A stretch of DNA of 57,979 nt from Chloroflexota bacterium. GTDB lineage: Bacteria > Chloroflexota > Anaerolineae > Anaerolineales > VGOW01. The stretch spans positions 1-57,979 of the forward strand of contig VGOW01000021.1 of the NCBI GenBank assembly GCA_016875735.1. Direction: 5' to 3'. The position numbers and the translations under genes are program-made. A model generated the notes under the pieces. The model was given only the letters and a program-made list of their open reading frames with translations, was not told the DNA's origin and did not search any database. This document shows, one piece after another, positions 5,633 to 57,979 of this stretch; position 1 is the first letter of the stretch, and every line of letters starts with the position of its first letter.

Positions 5633-6568
5633 TCACTGCGTCTTTCCCGATGAGGCGAGAAGAGAAATGAAAGCGTCTTCGAGCGTGGCGGGAATCGGCC
5701 GCAATCGATCCACCATCACCCCGCCCCCGCTCAACGCGGAGGGCAACCGCGACACCACGCCCTCAATCTGCCGGACTCGCAAATGGAGGCGGTCGCCAAA
5801 GGCGAGGGCGTCTTCCACATCGGGATCGGCCAAACACAATTCGCGCGCTCGATCCTTGGGATGGGCGATCAGTTCGAGCACGTGGCCGCTCATGTTGGCG
5901 GTGAGCTCGCGCGGCGAGCCGTGAGTGAGGATGCGCCCGCGATACATGAAGCCGAGCCGATTGCATCGCGCAGCCTCATCCATGTATGGCGTGCTGACGA
6001 TGGCGGCGATGCCTTCGGAGCCGAGCAAGCGAATGATGAGCTGCCAAAAATCTTGCCGCGTCACCGGATCGACTCCGGCGGTGGGTTCGTCGAGCAGCAG
6101 CACTTGCGGGCGATGGATGAGCGCGGTGGCGAGGCCGAGTTTTTGCTTCATGCCGCCGGAGAGGTTGCCCGCGAGTCGGGTCTCGAAACCGGCGAGGCCG
6201 ACGAAGTGAAGCAGTTCGGCGGCGCGGGCGTCGAGCGGCGCGCCGGCCACGCCGCGCACTTCGCCGAAGAAGCGCAGGTTCTCGATCACCGTGAGATCAA
6301 CGTAGAGGCTGAATCGTTGGGCGAGGTAGCCCACCATTGCCCGCGCCGACTCGGCGTGTTTGCCAAGATCGTGCCCGCCGATGATCACCGAGCCGGAGTC
6401 GCACGAGAGGGCGCCGATGAGCAGGCGCATGGTTGTGGTTTTGCCAGCGCCGTCCGGGCCCACGAGTCCGTAGGCCTCACCGGCGTTCACGGTCAGGCTC
6501 ACGCCGTCCACCGCTTGGGTGGAGCCAAAACGCTTGCGCAGATCGCGGGCTTCGATGAGAGTGGTCAT
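5633..6568 (-). CDS. ABC transporter ATPase, efflux type (first ATPase of the operon)
   Basis: This 311-residue ATPase begins MTTLIEARDLRKRFG and has Walker A GPDGAGKTTT, signature LSGGMKQKLGL, Walker B LLLDEP, and STPYMDEAAR at the switch position, where the usual histidine is replaced by proline-tyrosine. The sister ATPase keeps the histidine, so this site may be the degenerate one of an asymmetric pair; that is inferred. Its ATG overlaps the stop of the HlyD gene, so translation is coupled. It corresponds to the first half of YbhF-type fused ATPases. Confidence 0.88.
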   Translation of the reverse strand: MTTLIEARDLRKRFGSTQAVDGVSLTVNAGEAYGLVGPDGAGKTTTMRLLIGALSCDSGSVIIGGHDLGKHAESARAMVGYLAQRFSLYVDLTVIENLRFFGEVRGVAGAPLDARAAELLHFVGLAGFETRLAGNLSGGMKQKLGLATALIHRPQVLLLDEPTAGVDPVTRQDFWQLIIRLLGSEGIAAIVSTPYMDEAARCNRLGFMYRGRILTHGSPRELTANMSGHVLELIAHPKDRARELCLADPDVEDALAFGDRLHLRVRQIEGVVSRLPSALSGGGVMVDRLRPIPATLEDAFISLLASSGKTQ

Positions 6569-8091
6569 TTTCCAAATTTCACGTCGGCGGGCATGCCGGG
6601 TTTCAGTTTTCCTTCGGGGTTGTCAATCGAAAGGTCAATGGCGAACACGGTGGTCTTGCGGCCTTCGGTGGTTTGCACGTTGCGCGGCGTGAACTCGGCT
6701 TGATCGGCGATGTGGGCCACGGTGGCGGTGAAGGTTTCGTCGGGGAACGAGTCGACGGTGACGGTGGCGGTCTGCCCGAGGCTGATCGCGCCGTATCGAT
6801 CTTCGGGGACGTACACGGTGATGGTCAATCGGCTGAGGTCGGCGACGACGAGCAAGATTGCGCCGGGCAGGATGACTTCTCCCGGCTCGACAGCGCGCGA
6901 AAGGACGATGCCATCGGCGGGGGCGAGGAGGGTGAGTTTGGCGATCTGCACATCGAGCACGCCGAGCGCGGCTTGAGCCAATTCCACTTGCGCTTTCGCC
7001 GTTTCGAGTCGATCGTCGGAGGCGGCGGCTTTGGCGGCGATCAACGCGGTTTCGGCGGCGGCCAGCCGCGCCTGCGCCGCGGCAAGTTTGTCGGGGTCGG
7101 GGCCGGTTTGCACTTTTTCGTAACGGCTCAGGGCGTCGTCGAGTTTGGCTTGCGCCACTTCCACATCGGCTTGGGCGATGGCGAGATCGATTGCGTCGGG
7201 CCCCTGCAACGCCCAGTCCAAATCTTGCCGCGCATCGTCGAGGGCTTCCTGAACATCGTCGGTGAGATTGCTGTTGCTTCGTTGGGCCTGATCGATTTGG
7301 AGTTCGAGCTCGCGCACGGTGTTGGCAATGTCGTTGTATGCATCCTGCGCGTCTTCGAGGCGCATGGGGATTCTATCGACGGTGACGTATCGGTTGGGGT
7401 CGCATTCGGGGCAACCGGCGATGGCAGTTTTCACTGCGCCCAATCGGTCTCCGGCGGTTTTGAGCGCGTCGCGCGCGGCCTGCAAACTTGCTTGCAGTGA
7501 GCCGATGTCGATGATCTCGGCGTTCTGCTGGGCGGTGAGCAGTGCGTCTTCGGCTCTGTCCACTCGATCTTGATAGAACTCGATGTCGGGGTGGCGGGTG
7601 TTATTGAGGCGCTGTTGGGCTTTGTCGAGGGCGTCGCGGGCGCGGGCCACTTCGGATTCGGCCTGCGCGGTGGCGAGGGCGGCGGTGTCGTTCAGGGTGT
7701 CGAGCGCCTGCTGGGCGTCGAGCAATTCTTTTTCGGCGCGGGCCACGGCGGCGTTCAGCTGTTCGGCGGCGGCGCCATCGACGAGCGAGTCGTAATTGGC
7801 TTGGGCGGCGGCGAGGGCGGCGGCGGCTTGCGCTCGTTGAGTCTCGAGGAGCGCGGTATTCATCTGCACGAGCGCGTCGCCCCTTTTCACCGAGTCGCCT
7901 TCGGCGACGTTGATCAGGCTCACCCGCCCGGAGAGTTCGGGAGCGATAGCAATATCAACGGCCTCGATGGTGCCTGAAGCGTCAATGTCGCCTTTTTGCG
8001 CCGAGGCGCGGCTGGTGAAATACCAGTAGCCGAGTCCGGCGAGGGCGAGAAGAAGGATGACGGGGGCGATTCGTTTGGAATCGGGATGCAT
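6565..8091 (-). CDS. HlyD/YbhG-type membrane fusion protein with a long coiled coil
   Basis: This 508-residue periplasmic adaptor has one N-terminal membrane anchor (IAPVILLLALAGLGYWYF, about residues 7-24), a split biotinyl-lipoyl domain (IAPELSGRVSLINVAEGDSV and LTLLAPADGIVLSRAVEPG) and a very long Ala/Gln/Asp-rich helical hairpin between them (about 100-370). The length, versus about 330 residues for E. coli YbhG, comes from that hairpin. An internal CPECDP motif interrupts the coiled coil and is unusual. ATG 8091 (MHPDSKRIAP) has GAGG 8 bases upstream; the longer open frame runs into spacer repeats. Confidence 0.85.
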   Translation of the reverse strand: MHPDSKRIAPVILLLALAGLGYWYFTSRASAQKGDIDASGTIEAVDIAIAPELSGRVSLINVAEGDSVKRGDALVQMNTALLETQRAQAAAALAAAQANYDSLVDGAAAEQLNAAVARAEKELLDAQQALDTLNDTAALATAQAESEVARARDALDKAQQRLNNTRHPDIEFYQDRVDRAEDALLTAQQNAEIIDIGSLQASLQAARDALKTAGDRLGAVKTAIAGCPECDPNRYVTVDRIPMRLEDAQDAYNDIANTVRELELQIDQAQRSNSNLTDDVQEALDDARQDLDWALQGPDAIDLAIAQADVEVAQAKLDDALSRYEKVQTGPDPDKLAAAQARLAAAETALIAAKAAASDDRLETAKAQVELAQAALGVLDVQIAKLTLLAPADGIVLSRAVEPGEVILPGAILLVVADLSRLTITVYVPEDRYGAISLGQTATVTVDSFPDETFTATVAHIADQAEFTPRNVQTTEGRKTTVFAIDLSIDNPEGKLKPGMPADVKFGK

Positions 8092-8163: not shown

Positions 8164-9297
8164 ATCCAGTCGTTTGCGGAATCGGAGGGCGGCGGCGGTC
8201 ATGATGCCGACGCCAAAGATGGTCAGGGCGATAACTTCATTTTGGATTTCTGCGAGGCCCACGCCTTTGAGCAAGAGAGTGCGAATGATCGTGAGGTAGT
8301 AGCGCAAGGGCATGAGGAACGAAAGATAACGCAACACGGCGGGCATGGCTTCGAGGGGAAAGAAGAAACCGGAAAGGAAGATGCCTGGCAAGAGCGTCAT
8401 CCACACGGTGAGCATCGCTTCCTGTTGGGTATTGGCCACCGAGGAGGCAAACAAGCCGATGCCGAGGCTGGACATGAGGAACAGCGCCGAGAGCCCCAAG
8501 ATGAGCAGCAGGCTGCCGCGCACCGGCACATGAAACCACCATGCGCCGATGGCCAGCACTTCGATTGCGTTGAACAACGCAAGAACGGTGTACGGGAGCA
8601 ACTTGCCGACGACGAGTTCCCATGGACGGATAGGGGTGACGATGAGCTGCTCGATGGTGCCGCGTTCGCGCTCGCGGACGATGGCGGTGGCGGTGAGGAT
8701 GGACGTGATGGCGTAGAGGATCATGCCGATCACGCCGGGGATCATGAAATAGGCGTTGACAAGATCGGGGTTGTACCAAACTTGAGTGCGCACATCGACC
8801 GGCAGGGTGGTTTGCAGAACTGCGCCGCGCCGCGCCAATCGCTCGCTCATGATCTCGGTGGACTTCGATTGCCCGATGAGTTTGGCCGCCGAGAGGGCGG
8901 TGCCGGCTACCGTCGGGTCACTGCCATCCAAGATAAAGGCTACTTGCGCCGAGCCGCCGCTGTTGAGTTGCTTGCCGTAGTCGGGCGGGATGATCAACCC
9001 GGCGCGGGCCTGGCCGCCGTCGATCAACGCGAGCAATTCATCTTCGGAGCCAACATCGTAGGCGAGCCGAAAATAGTCGGCGGCGCGGTAAGCGTCGAGC
9101 AGGGCGCGCGCTTCGGGGCCGCGATCTTGATCCAGCACGGCCAGCGGCACGTTGCGCACATCGTTGTTGGCGGCATAGCCGAGCAGAAACAACTGCATCA
9201 CCGGGATGATGATGATGAGAACCAGCGTGCGGGGATCGCGTGTGATCTGAATGAACTCTTTGCGCACCAGAGAGAACAGGCGAGTGTTGAACATCAA
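8161..9297 (-). CDS. ABC-2 type permease (YbhS/YbhR family)
   Basis: This 378-residue permease has one membrane helix near the N-terminus (LVLIIIIPVMQLFLLGYA), a large extracytoplasmic region to about residue 175, and five C-terminal membrane segments beginning at IPGVIGMILYAITSILTATA. The motif RERERGTIEQLIVTPIRPWE is the typical ABC-2 amphipathic loop. YbhSR in E. coli are two permeases; only one is present here, so a homodimer is likely. Its ATG overlaps the stop of tetR by 4 bases. Substrates of this class are drugs or other hydrophobic compounds; none can be named. Confidence 0.88.
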   Translation of the reverse strand: MMFNTRLFSLVRKEFIQITRDPRTLVLIIIIPVMQLFLLGYAANNDVRNVPLAVLDQDRGPEARALLDAYRAADYFRLAYDVGSEDELLALIDGGQARAGLIIPPDYGKQLNSGGSAQVAFILDGSDPTVAGTALSAAKLIGQSKSTEIMSERLARRGAVLQTTLPVDVRTQVWYNPDLVNAYFMIPGVIGMILYAITSILTATAIVRERERGTIEQLIVTPIRPWELVVGKLLPYTVLALFNAIEVLAIGAWWFHVPVRGSLLLILGLSALFLMSSLGIGLFASSVANTQQEAMLTVWMTLLPGIFLSGFFFPLEAMPAVLRYLSFLMPLRYYLTIIRTLLLKGVGLAEIQNEVIALTIFGVGIMTAAALRFRKRLD

Positions 9298-48555: not shown

Positions 48556-48628
48556 GCCCCCATCGTCTAGTGGACTAGGACGCGGCCCTTTCAAGGCCAA
48601 AACCGGGGTTCGAATCCCCGTGGGGGCA
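48556..48628 (+). tRNA. tRNA-Glu (anticodon TTC)
   Basis: A 73-base cloverleaf: acceptor arms GCCCCCA (48556-48562) and TGGGGGC (48621-48627) with discriminator A at 48628; T arm CGGGG-TTCGAAT-CCCCG; anticodon loop CTTTCAA with TTC. CCA is not encoded. Its last nine bases are part of the left attachment repeat of an integrated element, so the insertion leaves the tRNA intact. Confidence 0.93.
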
Positions 48629-48655
48629 CTCTGAAATCTTGGGTAAGAGCATCTT
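48620..48655 (+). other. attL, left 36-bp direct repeat of the integrative element
   Basis: These 36 bases, starting with the last nine of tRNA-Glu and ending AAGAGCATCTT, are identical to 56096-56131. The bases just outside differ on both sides (C/T before, T/G after), which sets the limits. Confidence 0.92.
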
Positions 48656-48677
48656 TGTTTCATGGGAGTGACACAAG

Positions 48678-48926
48678 ATGACCTTACCCAAGCCCCCCAC
48701 TCTCTCGCGTAAGCCCATGCCCGATCTCAAAGACTATATGACCACCGAAGAGGCGGCGAAGGCGCTGGGCTTTCACGTTATCACAGTAAGGCAGATGGTC
48801 AGGGACGGCAAACTCGAAGGAGTGAAACTTGGCCCCGGCTGGCTTGTCTTGCGGAAGTCGGTAACCGATTACAAGAAACGCACCGAGGGCATGAGCAAGA
48901 ACGACCCCCGACGCGGAGAAAAATAG
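48678..48926 (+). CDS. Excisionase/MerR-like HTH protein (recombination directionality factor candidate)
   Basis: This 82-residue protein contains a HTH_17-type DNA-binding domain: YMTTEEAAKALGFHVITVRQ, MVRDGKLEGVKLGPGWLVLR, followed by SVTDYKKRTEG. Such small proteins often direct excision by the partner recombinase. It is the first gene inside attL. In the excised circle it would lie directly downstream of the recombinase gene. ATG 48678 or 48717 (MPDLKDYM) may be the start. Confidence 0.8.
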   Translation: MTLPKPPTLSRKPMPDLKDYMTTEEAAKALGFHVITVRQMVRDGKLEGVKLGPGWLVLRKSVTDYKKRTEGMSKNDPRRGEK

Positions 48927-48962
48927 AAAGCGCGGTGACAGTTGACACGCGCTTTTTGTTTT
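48927..48962 (+). terminator. Terminator of the excisionase-like gene, overlapping the next promoter
   Basis: AAAGCGCG (48927-48934) and CGCGCTTT (48948-48955) form a stem, followed by TTTTTGTTTTG. The loop holds the TTGACA of the following promoter. Confidence 0.75.
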
Positions 48963-48970
48963 GCTATACT
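48942..48970 (+). promoter_or_regulatory. Strong consensus promoter inside the element
   Basis: TTGACA (48942-48947), exactly 17 bases, then TGCTATACT with TATACT at 48965-48970, an extended -10. It drives the genes from 49150 on. Its -35 is in the loop of the preceding terminator hairpin. Confidence 0.8.
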
Positions 48971-50821: not shown

Positions 50822-50914
50822 TCTCGATCAATCAAAACGCCCGACGATGGAGAAACATCATCGGGCGCGCTACCCACCGATGAAGGCGGCGGGCTGAGAC
50901 ACAGTAGCACTTGC

Positions 50915-50948
50915 AAGCCGCCCAAGTCAAGGGCGGCTTTTTGTTTTT
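50915..50948 (+). terminator. Rho-independent terminator
   Basis: AAGCCGCCC (50915-50923) and GGGCGGCTT (50931-50939) form a 9-bp stem, followed by TTTTTGTTTTT. It separates the RHH-like gene from vapB. Confidence 0.88.
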
Positions 50949-50958
50949 GGAGATCACT

Positions 50959-51201
50959 ATGAGCACACAGACGATCACCCTCTCCCTCTCCGACAGCCTG
51001 ATAAAACGCGCCGAAGCACTGGCGGCCCAGCGGCACATCACCGTATCCCGCCTTCTCGCCGAAGCCATCGAAGAACTGATCGCGCGCGAAGACCGCTACG
51101 CCCGGGCCCGGGCGCGGTCTTTGGCGCTCATGGCGAACGCGCCCGACTTGGGCACACGCGGCCAGATCGCCGTGACCCGTGAGGCTTTGCATGAGCGATA
51201 A
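50959..51201 (+). CDS. vapB: VapB-like RHH antitoxin
   Basis: This 80-residue protein starts TITLSLSDSLIKRAEALAAQ and HITVSRLLAEAIEELIARED, an RHH DNA-binding fold typical of antitoxins, followed by a flexible C-terminus that would wrap the toxin. GGAG precedes ATG 50959. It overlaps the PIN toxin gene by 11 bases. The pair would autorepress and help keep the element. Confidence 0.8.
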   Translation: MSTQTITLSLSDSLIKRAEALAAQRHITVSRLLAEAIEELIAREDRYARARARSLALMANAPDLGTRGQIAVTREALHER

Positions 51202-51619
51202 GCCGCAGTTTGTGGATACGAATGTGCTGATCTACGCCCATGATAGATCGGCGGGCGCCAAGCACGAACGCGCGCGGGCTGTGTTGGAGTCGTTGTGGGA
51301 AAACGGCAACGGGCGACTCAGCATCCAGGTGTTGCAAGAGTTTTATACCAATGCCACGCGGAAGATCAGCAAGCCGCTCGACGCCGACACCGCCAAAGAC
51401 ATCATCGCCAGTTTTGGGGAATGGCCCACACACTCGCCCACTGTGGCCGACGTGCTGGCGGCCATTGAATTGCAGAAGCGGCACTCGCTCTCGTTCTGGG
51501 ATGCGATGATGCTGACGAGCGCGGCGCGGATGGGATGCGAGGCGGTGCTATCGGAAGACCTGAGCGCCGGGCAGGACTACGACGGCGTGAAAGTGGTCAA
51601 CCCGTTTGAGGGGGGATGA
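51191..51619 (+). CDS. vapC: VapC-like PIN-domain toxin
   Basis: This 142-residue PIN ribonuclease contains FVDTNVLIYAHD (first acidic residue), VLQEFYTNAT (second acidic), and LSFWDAMMLTSAARMGCEAVLSEDL with the two C-terminal acidic positions (WDAM and SEDL). All the usual catalytic residues are present. Such toxins cut tRNA or rRNA. ATG 51191 was preferred over GTG 51179. Partner of the antitoxin just upstream. Confidence 0.85.
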   Translation: MSDKPQFVDTNVLIYAHDRSAGAKHERARAVLESLWENGNGRLSIQVLQEFYTNATRKISKPLDADTAKDIIASFGEWPTHSPTVADVLAAIELQKRHSLSFWDAMMLTSAARMGCEAVLSEDLSAGQDYDGVKVVNPFEGG

Positions 51620-52399: not shown

Positions 52400-54300
52400 C
52401 CAACTTAAACGCGAAGCCCGCTCTGCCAGAAGCGGGCCTCGCAAAAAAGGATTTGGGAATGGGTAATCAAGAGTATAGCACACTCGACTCGCTGAGCGCA
52501 AGCCATTATCGGGCCTTGCAGTCGTCGGCGATCTCGGACGACGTGATCCGCGAGCGCGGCTACCGAACCATCACCGCTCTCAAGGAACTACGCGATCTCG
52601 GATTCTCGCAATGCTCAACCGCCCAAGTGCCCGGCCCGCTTTTGCCCCTGCACTCCGTCGAAGGCGATCAGCCCTTCCACGTTTACCGCCCGGACAACCC
52701 GCGAACCTTCGACGACAAGAAGGGCAAGCGCAACCCCGACTGTCCCTCTGGGTCACGGAAGGGCAGAAGAAAGCCGACGCGCTTGCCAGCGCCGGGCTGT
52801 GCGCTATCGCTCTTCTCGGTGTGTCGAATTGGGCAACGAAGTTTCGCTCCAAAGACGGCAAGACCGAATGGCGATTCATCGCCACGAAGAAGCGCGCGAT
52901 CAATGTCGTCTTCGACTGCGACGTGATGATGAAAGGCAAGGTGAGAATCGAACTCGCCAACCTCACGAAGTTCTTGCAGAACAAAGGCGCAACGGTCAAT
53001 GCCGTCTATCTTCCCAACGATCCGAAACGGGGCAAGGTTGGAGTCGATGATTGGCTTGCCGAGGGTCACACCCTCGCCGAACTCGAAAACCTGATCGACG
53101 CGCCGCGGCCGGCCCCGCAACTTCCACCACCCATCACCGAATTACTCGATGATGCTCCGCCCACGATCAGCCGCCCGCTATCGCTGATCAGCGGGCGCGC
53201 TTACGCGGCGGCATGGCCGTACACCCAAACCCGGATCGATTTCGACAAAGACCGGGGAGGCAACATCGTCAAACTGCCAGAACCGCGCTTCGAGAAAGAA
53301 CGGCGGTTGATCATCATCCGCAATGACGGCGCGCGTTTCGGCGATGGAATGCAAAACTCTTTCGCCGATCTGGGCATCGATGTTCGTCTTGCCGATCCCC
53401 CGCCGCAAAAAGACAAACTCTGGTCAACGCCCGGCATTCGGAAGTATCTCGGCGGCTATCGCCCCGATCCTGCCGATGTCTTTCGACGTGTAGTCGAAGT
53501 GCTGAGTCACTTCGTGGACTTCGAGCAATCCCTCGCCGATCAGGAAACCATGTCGCAAATGATCGCCTGCTTCATCCTCTCGACATGGTTTCTCGACATG
53601 ACGAACGTATCCGGCGCATTGTGGATGACGGGCGAGAAGGGATCGGGTAAGTCGCACACGATGATCGTGGTCTGCGAACTTGGGCACCTCGGTCAGGCGA
53701 TCATCGGCGCATCGAGCGCGGCCAGCGTGCGCGACCTCGCGGCCTACGGCGCGCTACTCGGACTCGACGAGGCCGAGAACATCGCCGATAAGAGCAAGGT
53801 CGATCCCGAACTGCGCGATCTGTTTCTGGCGAGCAATCGACGCGGCGTGCCTGTCTCGTTGAAAGAGGCCGGGCCCGACGGGAAGTGGCACAACATTCTG
53901 ATCGACGCCTTCGGCGCGAAGGTGTTCACCGCGATCAGCAATCCCTTCGACACGCTGTCCAGCCGCGTGATCATCGTGCCCCTTGCCAAAACCCCCGACC
54001 GCAAGAAAGCCAACGCCGACCCACTCGATCATCGCCAGTGGCCGCACGACTGGCGAACGCTGATTGACGATCTCTGGGCAATGGCGCATCTCTCGTTTGC
54101 CGGAGATGCAGAGATACGATCTGATGGTCAGCGAACACACCCGGATCATCGGGCGAGACCTCCAGCCGTGGCGCGGCCTTCTTACGGTGGCCGCGTGGCT
54201 CGATGCGAACGGCGTGCCCGGCCTGTGGACGAAGAACGACGGCGGCGGGCTTGTGTGCAACAACTGCCACGAGGATCCGCGGCTGAAAGCAAGGCAATAA
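52396..54300 (+). pseudogene. DUF3854-type primase/helicase-like gene with two frameshifts
   Basis: Three consecutive frames together make one protein. Frame 1 (52396 or ATG 52459 to about 52740): SASHYRALQSSAISDDVIRE. Frame 2 (about 52740-54100): LWVTEGQKKADALASAGLCA (Toprim-like), FDCDVMMKGKV, and the helicase Walker A WMTGEKGSGKSHTM with Walker B-like LLGLDEAENI. Frame 1 again (about 54100-54300): MVSEHTRIIGRDLQPWRGLL. At the first join the expected linker seems shortened as well. The protein would be the element's replication enzyme; as written it is broken unless frameshifting or a sequence error is involved. Confidence 0.75.
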
Positions 54301-54366
54301 ATGACCTGCGTCCCGTAGAAATCGCTCTACGGCCTTCCTGACGCGATTTGCAAGCATCGTAGACCC

Positions 54367-54582
54367 ATGAACGGCAACAGTCCGCCCACCCCATCGAAAA
54401 GCGCATCCTTCGACGTGGAAGAGATCGGCGGCGCGCAGTTCGACGATCTCACCGAAGCGCAGAGGGCCGCCCTGCCCCTCTTGGCCGCCGACATCACGAC
54501 GGCGCTTCGGGCGCTCATTGCTTCGGGCGCGCTGGCTGTGCGTGATGGGCGCGTGACCGTGTGCGACAACAAATCATCATGA
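54367..54582 (+). CDS. Small acidic protein upstream of the recombinase
   Basis: This 71-residue product (VEEIGGAQFDDLTEAQRAAL) has no recognised domain. Its stop overlaps the recombinase ATG (ATGA), so it is coupled to recombinase synthesis and may be a regulator or accessory of integration. Confidence 0.5.
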   Translation: MNGNSPPTPSKSASFDVEEIGGAQFDDLTEAQRAALPLLAADITTALRALIASGALAVRDGRVTVCDNKSS

Positions 54583-56645
54583 CCGACTACATCCCCCCGC
54601 CCTCTTCTCTCCCGCCCGGCTCTTCGGTGTGGGCCTACTTGCGCGATAGCGGCGGCACGGCGCAAGAATTGAGCGTGAAGCAACAGGAAAGCGTGATCAT
54701 GGCTTACTGTGCGAGGCACAGTCTCATCCTAACGCGCCTCTTCGCCGATGAAGCCAAGACTGCCAGCACCGACAAAGGGCGCGATATGTTCGCCGAGATG
54801 ATCGACGTGACCGCAAGACCGCAAGACCGCCCCGCCGGGCTGTTGATCTGGAGTCTCTCTCGCTTCGCCCGCAACCAAAACGACTCGCCCTACTATCGCG
54901 CCATGCTCCGCAAGCGCGGCGTGGTCATTCACTCCCTCACCGAAGTCTTGCCCGATGACTCGACCGCCATCGTGATCGAGGCCGTTTACGATTTCACCAA
55001 CGCCGAGAAGTTGCGCCAAACTTCGCGCGACGTGAAGCGCGCTCTTCACGCGCTCGCCCGGCAAGGCTTCATCGGCGGCGTGCCCCCGCGCGGCTACAAA
55101 GCCGAGTCCGTCATCATCGGCGAGAAGCGTGACGGCGCTCCCCGCAAGGTAAGCCGCTGGGTCATCGATCCCGATCTCGCTCCCTTCGTGCAAAAGGCGT
55201 GGGCGCTGGCCGCCGAAGGGAAAGGCACGCGAGAGATCGAGCGCGCCACCGAAGGCCGACTCTACAAGCCCAAGAACTCATGGACAACGTTCTTTGCCAA
55301 CAAGACCTATATCGGCATTCTCAAATTCGGCGACGAAGAGATCGAGGGCGTGATCCCCGCCCTGATCGACCGTGAGACTTGGGAGGCCGTGCAACGACAT
55401 CGGCAAGCGCGGGCAAGAACGAACATCCGAAGGGGGCCGACTCGCGGCATACTCTCCGGGCTGGCCTTCTGTGCCCGATGCAATTCCACCATGTCGCACA
55501 GCATGAACAAACTATGGCGGTATTACATCTGCGGCAAGAAGACTCGCGAGGGCGCGAAGGCTTGCCCCGAACGAAGGATCGGCGCAGACAAAGCGGATGC
55601 CAGAGTGCTCGATGCGGTGATCGGGCGCGTGTTCACCCGGTCAATGGCCGAAGCGTTGATCGCCGAAGTGCAAGCGCAACTTTCCGACACGAGCGCGCTC
55701 GACCGCGAGATTGCTCAACTGGACAAGCAGATCGCCGAAGTGAAACGCAAGATAGCCCACCTCAACGATCAGATCGAAAACTTCGGCCCGGCCAAGTCCA
55801 CACAGGAAACTTTGTTGCGGCGCGAGACCGAACTCGCCGAGGTGGAAGGCAGGCGCGCCCATGCCGAAGCGCGCAAGGCCGCGCACGCGATCACCATCAC
55901 GCCCGATGTCTTGGCCTTCGTGATCAATTTGTGGATTGGCGATCTGGCTCAGGCGCGCGAAGCGAAGGACGTGACGGCCATGCAGGACTTGCTTCGGCGA
56001 TTTGTTTCAAGAGTCGATCTGAGTTACAATTCAACTCGTATCACTTATCGGTTTCCACTCAACGACAGCGACTGTAGCAAAGACACCGTGCCTTTGTGGG
56101 GGCACTCTGAAATCTTGGGTAAGAGCATCTTGCTCTTTGAGGCGCAGGCACGTTGTGTCTGCGTTTTGTTTTTGCGCCTCCTCTCGCGGGCAGGTCGACG
56201 CGGCCTCGCGTTATTCCAACGGCCAACCCGGTATCGCTGCATCAATCTCCGCCATCAACCGGATGGTCTCTTTGAGCGCCACTACCACTTTGGCATAGTG
56301 CGCCTTGTCTTCGGCGCTCAGTTCGCGCCCGCGCCGGTCTTTGAGCCACTTGTGGCAGACCTGATAGCCGCCGACGTGAAATTCCCACACGTCTTCCGGC
56401 ACGCCGACAAAGCCTTGCTCATCGTTAATCCACACCGTCTCGTCCTCGTACTTGGGATAACCCGAAGCGACGACGTTGTCACCCTTGCCAGTGAATTTGG
56501 CGATGGGATGATTGAGGGCTTTGGATTCCAACAGATGCAAGCCTACCAGTTCTTTACCCTTGGCCGCCAGCGCGCGGAACAGCTCAAGGTTGCGGGTGAG
56601 CGGCAGGCGGGGGAAATCTATTTTGAGAAACTCGGCGTAGCGTGA
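54579..56645 (+). CDS. Large serine recombinase whose 3' end runs through attR
   Basis: The catalytic domain (residues about 15-150) has VWAYLRDSGGTAQELSVKQQ (Ser of RDSGG likely nucleophile) and LLIWSLSRFARNQND. A recombinase domain (GGVPPRGYKAE, YIGILKFGDEEIEGV), a zinc ribbon (CARCNSTMSHSMNKLWRYYIC with a later C), and a coiled coil (EIAQLDKQIAEVKRKIAHLN) follow. The reading frame enters attR (56096) without a stop and continues into host DNA to 56645, adding 171 residues antisense to the neighbouring gene. In the excised circle the frame would enter attL and stop at 48669-48671, giving a short tail ending SIFVSWE. ATG 54579 overlaps the previous stop. Confidence 0.85.
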   Translation: MTDYIPPPSSLPPGSSVWAYLRDSGGTAQELSVKQQESVIMAYCARHSLILTRLFADEAKTASTDKGRDMFAEMIDVTARPQDRPAGLLIWSLSRFARNQNDSPYYRAMLRKRGVVIHSLTEVLPDDSTAIVIEAVYDFTNAEKLRQTSRDVKRALHALARQGFIGGVPPRGYKAESVIIGEKRDGAPRKVSRWVIDPDLAPFVQKAWALAAEGKGTREIERATEGRLYKPKNSWTTFFANKTYIGILKFGDEEIEGVIPALIDRETWEAVQRHRQARARTNIRRGPTRGILSGLAFCARCNSTMSHSMNKLWRYYICGKKTREGAKACPERRIGADKADARVLDAVIGRVFTRSMAEALIAEVQAQLSDTSALDREIAQLDKQIAEVKRKIAHLNDQIENFGPAKSTQETLLRRETELAEVEGRRAHAEARKAAHAITITPDVLAFVINLWIGDLAQAREAKDVTAMQDLLRRFVSRVDLSYNSTRITYRFPLNDSDCSKDTVPLWGHSEILGKSILLFEAQARCVCVLFLRLLSRAGRRGLALFQRPTRYRCINLRHQPDGLFERHYHFGIVRLVFGAQFAPAPVFEPLVADLIAADVKFPHVFRHADKALLIVNPHRLVLVLGITRSDDVVTLASEFGDGMIEGFGFQQMQAYQFFTLGRQRAEQLKVAGERQAGEIYFEKLGVA
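56096..56131 (+). other. attR, right 36-bp direct repeat of the integrative element
   Basis: Identical to 48620-48655. It lies within the recombinase reading frame, and the host tRNA terminator follows 12 bases later. Confidence 0.92.
56143..56173 (+). terminator. Displaced terminator of tRNA-Glu
   Basis: CGCAGGCAC (56143-56151) and GTGTCTGCG (56155-56163) form a 9-bp stem with one mismatch, followed by TTTTGTTTTT. In the uninterrupted chromosome this would lie about 25 bases after tRNA-Glu; the insertion moved it 7.5 kb away. Confidence 0.75.
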
Positions 56646-57979
56646 GCGATAAGTGGGCGAATGGAAGACCGCGTACATGTAGTGGAAGAGGTCTTCCGGG
56701 CCAAAAGTCTTTTGGAGGTCGCCCGTGCCATCGGGGATGAAGGCCAAGCCCAGCCGCGTTTCAATCTCCGCAATGAACTTGGGCGAGAGGTTGGGCTTGC
56801 GACCGCCGGGGCCGGCTTCAGCAAACATCGATTTCTGCTGATAATCGTCTTGGTCTTCTGAGTAAAAATAAACAGGAAACAGATAGTTGTACTCTCGTGT
56901 TTCTAATGAAATCGTGTTTCCATCAATCAATCTGTTCGTAACAAAAACATGAGCGAAATCATCCCCAGCAAGCTGTCGAACCGAAATCAAGGCCAGATTC
57001 GGTTTGCACATTCCCTGCATCAACTTGCCGCGCATACGCTTGATTGCATATGGGTGATAGAGTATCGGACGAACATCAAAGGGGCGGTAAAGCCATTCTT
57101 GTAGAAATTCCGTTTGTGGTCGTCTGCGCACGAGATTACGAATTTGTGAGTAGTTGAAGCTTGACCAATTCGGAGCATCAATACCAAGAGCAACCGCATC
57201 GAAGCTCGCACTATCTGCAATGGTTGTCAGACGTTTATTCATCTCTTTTGCTGTTATGGTCGAAACGAATTCGTCGCGTCCTGTCTGAACACCACTCACT
57301 GAGTCAGCAAACAATTCAGCCAGACTCCAGCCAAGGCAATATTCGTCTATGTTTTCGAAGGCTTTGGGTGTGAAGAAGCGAAAAGCCCCTAGGCAGGTCT
57401 GTCGATCAAGGTCTCTAACGTCACTCCATTTTGTTGTTGAAACATCATATTCAACCAAATAGGCGTATTTGCTCTCCCTCGAGCCCCAGAGCTCTGCGTG
57501 GCGAACTTCTCCGTTTCGCTTCCCCTGACCTCTTCTCACAAGAATTCCAATAGCTACTCCCTGCTTGATGTCAAATACGTTTTCATCCTTGGATCCGTCG
57601 GGCGCAATCTCTTTTTTCATTGCGCTGCCGTGTAAGTCCAAAATGTATATGCTATCGAAAGTCTCTCGCAGACTCTGGCGCATCCGACGATGAGTTATGC
57701 CCTCAATGAAAGTGTTATTCGTAATGAAGGCGAGGATACCTTGGCCGGTTTGCTCAATGCGCCACTGGGCGAAACGCATGAATTTGATAAAGTCATCGTC
57801 GAGGTTAATCTTCTTTTCATTCAAGTCCTTCTTGTAATCGTCAAGCAGGCCCGAAATCCATTCGCCCTTGTTCATTTGGCCGAAATTGGAATACGGCGGG
57901 TTGCCGATGATAACGGTGATGGGCGTCTCGGTTTTCACCGTGGCCGCCTCTTCGGCCTCGTGCGCCAAAAAGGCGGTGT
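56211..57979 (-). CDS. Type ISP restriction-modification protein, C-terminal part (start outside the window)
   Basis: The visible 585-plus residues contain the methyltransferase motif IV in PITVIIGNPPYSNFG, then MRFAQWRIEQTGQGILAFIT and NNTFIEGITHRRMRQSLRE. The C-terminal specificity-like part has FDVRPILYHPYAIKRMRGKL, AEIETRLGLAFIPDG and WEFHVGGYQVCHKWLKDRRG. This layout matches type ISP (LlaBIII-like) proteins, in which nuclease, translocase, methyltransferase and target recognition share one chain. The nuclease and helicase parts would lie beyond the window end; the frame is open to the last base. The recombinase read-through tail lies antisense to its 3' end. Confidence 0.85.
   Translation of the reverse strand, partial: TAFLAHEAEEAATVKTETPITVIIGNPPYSNFGQMNKGEWISGLLDDYKKDLNEKKINLDDDFIKFMRFAQWRIEQTGQGILAFITNNTFIEGITHRRMRQSLRETFDSIYILDLHGSAMKKEIAPDGSKDENVFDIKQGVAIGILVRRGQGKRNGEVRHAELWGSRESKYAYLVEYDVSTTKWSDVRDLDRQTCLGAFRFFTPKAFENIDEYCLGWSLAELFADSVSGVQTGRDEFVSTITAKEMNKRLTTIADSASFDAVALGIDAPNWSSFNYSQIRNLVRRRPQTEFLQEWLYRPFDVRPILYHPYAIKRMRGKLMQGMCKPNLALISVRQLAGDDFAHVFVTNRLIDGNTISLETREYNYLFPVYFYSEDQDDYQQKSMFAEAGPGGRKPNLSPKFIAEIETRLGLAFIPDGTGDLQKTFGPEDLFHYMYAVFHSPTYRSRYAEFLKIDFPRLPLTRNLELFRALAAKGKELVGLHLLESKALNHPIAKFTGKGDNVVASGYPKYEDETVWINDEQGFVGVPEDVWEFHVGGYQVCHKWLKDRRGRELSAEDKAHYAKVVVALKETIRLMAEIDAAIPGWPLE

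Follow-up and report, generated by a model that had tools for sequence, protein, structure and literature searches.

Integration exchanges the C-terminal end of a large serine recombinase in a Chloroflexota element and probably cuts its operon with an excisionase-family gene

The window analysed here (the whole stretch of Chloroflexota DNA, 57,979 nucleotides) holds a 7.5-kb integrative element in which the attachment site attP would lie between, and partly inside, the gene of a large serine recombinase (LSR) and an excisionase-family HTH gene. Since the end of the recombinase gene spans the landing site, joining the chromosome swaps its last few amino acids for host-encoded ones, and related elements together with a sequenced circular form show that this att-spanning end is an evolved feature. 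We consider it probable that attP is embedded in a translationally coupled recombinase-HTH operon, which is cut in two by integration.

Results

The features of the element and its surroundings are collected in Table 1. The element is 7,476 bp long and is bounded by a direct repeat of 36 bp that is perfect at both ends (0 expected according to shuffles), compared with about 10-14 bp common to the relatives. The extra 26 bp to the right of the tRNA end (56106-56131) match the element's own left arm, and are perhaps the scar of an earlier related element. As for its cargo, the element carries a small DUF6364-like protein with a PIN-domain protein after it (50911-51619), likely a toxin-antitoxin pair, and a DUF3854 protein (52611-54341), which is probably replication-related. 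No second small serine recombinase (CcrA/DsiA) was found among the selected element ORFs that were scanned, and an empty site with the same right flank was not found in the same-genus genomes.

Table 1. Coordinates of the features discussed in the text (positions of the window).
Feature	Position	Strand	Basis and remarks
tRNA-Glu(TTC), integration target	48556-48629	+	ARAGORN; 3' end intact at attL
attL repeat copy (tRNA 3' end and 26 bp)	48620-48655	+	exact 36-bp repeat
Left end of the element, coding the circle-specific tail SEILGKSIFVSWE and stop TGA (48669-48671)	48630-48671	+	joined translation; 10 further elements and sequenced joined DNA alike
Predicted RNA hairpin, CTTGGGTAAG ... CTTACCCAAG	48638-48692	+	encloses SD GGGAG (48664-48668) and the HTH start codon
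Excisionase-family HTH gene, 82 aa	48678-48926	+	Pfam HTH_17 2.4e-9; TIGR01764 excise 2e-11
Hairpin terminator directly 3' of the HTH gene	48927-48970	+	sequence and promoter scan
71-aa ORF	54367-54582	+	ORF list; family match: none
Serine recombinase ORF	54579-56645	+	start ATG at 54579, overlapped by the stop of the 71-aa ORF (ATGA)
Recombinase body and linker to the attR end, without a stop	54579-56131	+	Pfam
attR repeat copy, within the recombinase frame	56096-56131	+	exact 36-bp repeat
Host DNA in the recombinase frame when integrated, 171 codons including the border codon	56132-56645	+	ORF
Displaced tRNA terminator, predicted (14-pair stem, T-run)	56138-56168	+	upstream of the host stop codon
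Host Type ISP/Eco57I-like restriction-modification gene	56211-57977	-	Pfam Type_ISP_C 2.1e-81; 5' end off the window

The Pfam domains Resolvase (PF00239), Recombinase (PF07508) and Zn_ribbon_recom (PF13408) were all found above their cut-offs over residues 19-347 of the recombinase, and this combination of a catalytic Resolvase domain, a Recombinase domain and a zinc ribbon on one protein is that of a large serine recombinase; its relatives are 36-48% identical. In the chromosome the frame has no stop before or within attR and continues through 171 codons of host sequence (codons 518-688) to a stop at 56643-56645, while in the circle, joined in silico, the protein ends in ...GKSIFVSWE (LWGHSEILGKSIFVSWE / GHSEILGKSIFVSWE) at the TGA of the element's left end. 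The ORF reading and the joined translation bear out, in every coordinate, the original prediction, which had stated that the frame is open up to attR, that 171 host codons are read in the chromosome, that the circle would stop after SIFVSWE, and that the C-terminus therefore differs between the two states; to the last of these it can be added that the circle tail is evolutionarily maintained and is present in real circular DNA. A stop codon before attR in related elements had been named as one finding that would speak against the proposal, and such a stop is absent from the 10 other fully resolved elements (10/10) and from most of the other relatives. Judging by this comparison, the openness of the frame up to and through the core, which recurs in nearly all relatives, is not due to chance.

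Related recombinases were found by whole-genome searches, and 11 elements with both ends resolved were obtained, the window included. Seven of them form a tRNA-Glu group (the window, G061, G433, G323, G366, G520 and G525; at the left end of G520 only a tRNA-Glu-like 3' end is visible) and four a tRNA-Val group (G014, G515, G487 and G573a). In these elements the recombinase stands at the end away from the tRNA, on the same strand as the tRNA, and its frame crosses the core, the 3' end of the tRNA, without a stop (11/11). The core is read in differing frames (WGH, RGGT, FGGT, CAH or LAPT) and the exit is open every time, so the open exit is what is kept. In the predicted circles the stop lies 42-57 nt past the core (about 14-18 codons), and its distance to the ATG of the HTH gene is -4 to +7 nt in all 11 recombinase frames, five of them being ATGA overlaps; in the predicted circle of the window the HTH gene starts 6 nt past the recombinase stop. 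A stop in the same range around the HTH start was found in 3 of the 22 alternative frames, and the comparison of 11/11 with 3/22 gives 1.9e-6 if the frames are independent, an independence that is incomplete since the relatives are kin.

The circle tails of the tRNA-Glu group can be aligned as G/S-E-K-S/P-I-M-V-E-W-S. Among ten aligned tails of this group the pairwise differences at codon positions 1, 2 and 3 number 132, 45 and 176, respectively, and in a column permutation (a small test, on 10 codons) position 2 was low (p = 0.007) and position 3 high (p = 0.03). This suggests that the circle tail is under protein-level constraint, and is suggestive rather than proof, because these bases are shared with the SD and the hairpin, which could impose a constraint of their own. 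The tRNA-Glu and tRNA-Val elements differ in their tail residues, and they share an SD block that is read either as GAG TAA or as TGG AGT, depending on the frame. A strand-like pattern was present in 10 of 11 circle tails, 0 of 22 alternative frames, 0 of 11 host tails and 4 of 16 phage relatives, counts that are illustrative only, as the pattern was set after the sequences had been seen.

The same arrangement was found in sequenced joined DNA. A profile scan of viral contigs gave L147 (IMGVR_UViG_3300007775_000008; 15,906 bp), which is a closed circle, since it has a terminal overlap of 123 bp and a tape-measure-like ORF of 588 aa that runs open across the join. It contains a single core, and recombinase, tail and HTH gene are contiguous, the recombinase ending in ...RGGTQIIRGEKSIMVEWR and its stop, with the ATG of the HTH gene following after 2 nt. 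Since this junction matches the prediction made from the integrated relatives, the predicted arrangement exists in nature. The same recombinase-tail-HTH junction, in other sequences, was seen in L148 and in L177/L180, and these junctions (L148, L177, L180) may belong to circles or to tandem integrated copies. The scope of the recombinase-tail-HTH arrangement is given as the 11 tRNA-Glu/tRNA-Val elements and the joined forms L147, L148 and L177/L180. Beside its tape-measure-like gene, L147 also carries a primase/helicase-like gene, and it may be a small phage or a satellite belonging to this family.

Both family matches of the HTH gene (TIGR01764 and HTH_17) place it in the excisionase family, and the HTH genes of the resolved elements encode 78-93 aa. 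Going by its family, the gene would have the role of an excisionase-type directionality factor or of a regulator. The 5' arm of the predicted leader hairpin lies inside the tail-coding part, and its folding reaches a z of -4.1 in the window against dinucleotide shuffles, with a mean z of -3.4 over the 11 elements; this structure could be a DNA operator instead of an RNA device. A terminator-like hairpin follows the HTH gene in all 11 elements. In the window this terminator is at the same time part of a terminator/promoter composite, having a -35 TTGACA in its loop and a -10 TATACT past its T-run, and similar composites stand 3' of the HTH gene in G014, G520, G525, G573a and L147.

On the host side, the integrated tails of the resolved elements, the window included, are unrelated host sequences of 0, 1, 4-6, 20, about 35, 171 or several hundred codons, and the host DNA past the core usually forms a terminator-like hairpin, as is expected of the displaced tRNA terminator. 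As this predicted terminator precedes the host stop codon in the window, a non-stop message is predicted for the integrated state, with the 171-codon tail probably left incomplete. The terminator probably precedes the stop in G323, G487 and G573a as well, and in the 7 other elements the stop comes before or within the hairpin. The tail had also been pointed out as antisense to the neighbouring restriction gene; this is correct as to position, but the unrelated host tails of the relatives and the predicted terminator upstream argue against a meaningful tail of 171 codons. A functional antisense tail was rejected because it is common to no relative, has a terminator before its stop, and lies in a naturally stop-poor frame (11 stops in about 589 codons of the restriction-modification gene, where the two remaining frames have 24 and 26). 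The long overlap with this gene looks compatible with chance.

The recombinase of L147 with its circle tail was modelled with AlphaFold from a 20-row alignment of the window and viral loci (mean pLDDT 76, pTM 0.38). Residues 506-531, the linker over the core, are disordered in the model, and residues 533-538 (the SIMVEW region) form a strand with a pLDDT of about 73. Foldseek matched the model to 9y66_A (7.6e-16) and also to Bxb1 and phiC31, and VIA gave Z = 13.2 over 441 residues (rmsd 16.9), up to residue 505. The solved LSRs 9y66, 9dxh, Bxb1 (9iu2) and phiC31 align with the model to residue about 505, and the model of this homologue shows the LSR fold including the coiled coil. Since the canonical fold ends before the swapped part, the integrated enzyme would keep its entire catalytic and DNA-binding body; according to the model, integration alters only an extension beyond the canonical LSR fold.

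In the wider family, the phage relatives cross the core as PVGA and their frame often ends in a terminator-like hairpin; in L150-L174 the recombinase stop is often in the loop of this hairpin, and the residues around the core, LPIE...VGA...LYRQ, encode an attP-like dyad, TTGCCTATAG...CTATAGGCAA. In the class B relatives the recombinase runs antisense into tRNA-Glu, Gly, Thr, Asp, Ala, Arg, Val or Ile, and in the phylum-wide relatives L129-L146 the frame passes antisense through complete tRNA genes (Ala, Val, Arg, Ile); as regards class B circle tails, no credible att repeat was found in the class B relatives. G508/L173 and the degenerate L053 are exceptions, having a stop that precedes the core. 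The plasmid and phage records contained only distant relatives (best about 30% identity). Partial tRNA-Glu 3' ends occur near attR in G494 and G520, with a cluster on the G546 contig, and were located at 6014-6110 (L091), 7892-7990 (L093) and 9145-9240 (L094), suggesting repeated integrations at one tRNA gene.

Discussion

To hypothesize how such an operon would work, in the circle one frame would lead through the tRNA-derived core and about 14-18 more codons to a stop on or next to the HTH start, and, with the stop in this place, recombinase and HTH gene would form a coupled operon ending at the terminator past the HTH gene. Ribosomes finishing the recombinase would open the hairpin at the HTH start. 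Strand exchange at the core would cut this operon, the recombinase gaining a variable host tail and the host tRNA terminator, and the HTH gene, its start masked by the hairpin, moving behind the tRNA, which carries no ribosomes to open the hairpin. The HTH protein presumably works together with the recombinase, either as a directionality factor or as a regulator, and the loss of tail and partner may lower or redirect recombination in the chromosome. The circle-specific tail of the enzyme is likely a second effect beside the cutting of the operon. It is possible, and we propose it tentatively, that the proper C-terminus (a short conserved strand) and translation of the HTH gene exist only in the circle, integration being a self-executed switch that alters the enzyme and silences its partner.

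The evidence for a divided operon has to be weighed against a simple by-product, in which attP lies at the recombinase 3' end by coincidence, the exchanged residues do not matter, and conservation concerns DNA or RNA (attP arm, SD, operator, hairpin) and not a protein tail. The differing tail residues of the Glu and Val groups and the one SD block read in two frames would agree with this, as would the end of the canonical LSR fold at residue about 505, before the swapped part, and the residues next to the core of the phage relatives, where LPIE...LYRQ corresponds to the attP-like dyad TTGCCTATAG...CTATAGACAA. However, openness is specific to the recombinase frame (11/11 versus 3/22), codon position 2 is the least variable, and a stop before the core, although it would be a simple solution, is avoided by nearly all elements; we regard a by-product as rather unlikely.

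The opposite view, in which the tail itself is the switch, follows the original prediction that the swap could block excision or destabilise the integrated form; it would have the circle-tailed form integrate and the host-tailed form be inactive or altered for excision, so that the site sets the direction. A strand-like tail that is conserved in circles and absent from all integrated forms speaks for it, and a precedent is the Mx8 integrase, whose properties, as cited in PMC6070905, change with the replaced 3' end. We find it plausible but rather unlikely, since host tails ranging from none to several hundred codons share nothing, so that any effect would have to come from loss of the circle tail, and the LSR body stays intact after integration. 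Improbable, in our opinion, is decay by a non-stop route, by which the chromosomal transcript would end at the displaced tRNA terminator, before its stop, and the product would be tmRNA-tagged and destroyed. The order of terminator (56138-56168) and stop (56643) in the window, probably repeated in G323, G487 and G573a, is what this would need, but the terminator is a prediction, and as 7 of the 11 elements stop before or in the hairpin, non-stop decay cannot be the general design and was rejected as a general mechanism. The divided operon with its circle-specific tail thus remains our preferred reading.

Attachment sites inside coding sequences have been met with before. In mycobacteriophage BPs the altered protein is reportedly the repressor, whereas here it is the recombinase; the excerpt on BPs immunity describes an attP in a reading frame and a protein C-terminus altered by integration (PMC4557955). 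The closest likeness is to DsiB of the Dehalococcoides ssrA islands, a CcrB-like LSR whose 3' end always lies over att with its stop outside the island; McMurdie et al. (2011, PMC3146451) suggested that its full function may be confined to the circular form, and did not settle where its stop codon lies. The recombinase described here shares with DsiB a frame over att with no stop on the element side. Unlike DsiB, whose target ssrA is read antisense (PMC3146451), it uses tRNA-Glu or tRNA-Val on the same strand, and it has a resolved circle tail, to which an excisionase-like HTH gene is probably coupled. The L147 homologue matched the CcrB equivalog NF047343 with 7.7e-22 and 77.6 bits against a cut-off of 900, and on this score it is a relative of CcrB and not an equivalog.

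In Myxococcus phage Mx8, attP lies in the int coding sequence and integration creates a new int 3' end with changed properties (PMC6070905, in excerpt), which resembles the integration-dependent C-terminus found here. Mx8 is, however, cited among the tyrosine integrases in the part of PMC4383910 on Islander, which allows for integrases extending across attP, while ours is a serine recombinase, and the excerpted account of Mx8 mentions no coupled HTH gene (PMC6070905). The archaeal SSV-type suicidal integrases also have the recombination site inside the gene, which integration splits into Int(N) and Int(C) with loss of activity (PMC8371274); the likeness is that the integrase gene carries att and is altered by integration, but in our elements all canonical domains lie upstream of the core and only the extension is lost. 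Serine integrases with a tRNA target, like ours, are described as rare, phiRSM1 at tRNA-Ser and Mycobacterium AICEs at tRNA-Leu being named in the excerpt of PMC3218068, which makes no mention of an overlap of frame and att for them. To judge from the literature searched, three points are new: a circle tail that is both resolved and conserved, its proposed coupling to an excisionase-family gene, and a circle that has been sequenced.

Conclusions

Control of the direction of serine integrases is central to their biology and to their use as genome-insertion tools. The elements described here offer a natural case in which att is built into coding sequence, and the enzyme tail and its coupling to an excisionase-like gene would differ between free and integrated DNA. 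The question raised for DsiB in 2011, namely where the missing stop codon is, is answered at least for these relatives, and L147, L148, L177 and the window are ready sequences for a direct test. If true, the self-executed switch would operate in a whole family of serine recombinases, spread over a bacterial phylum.
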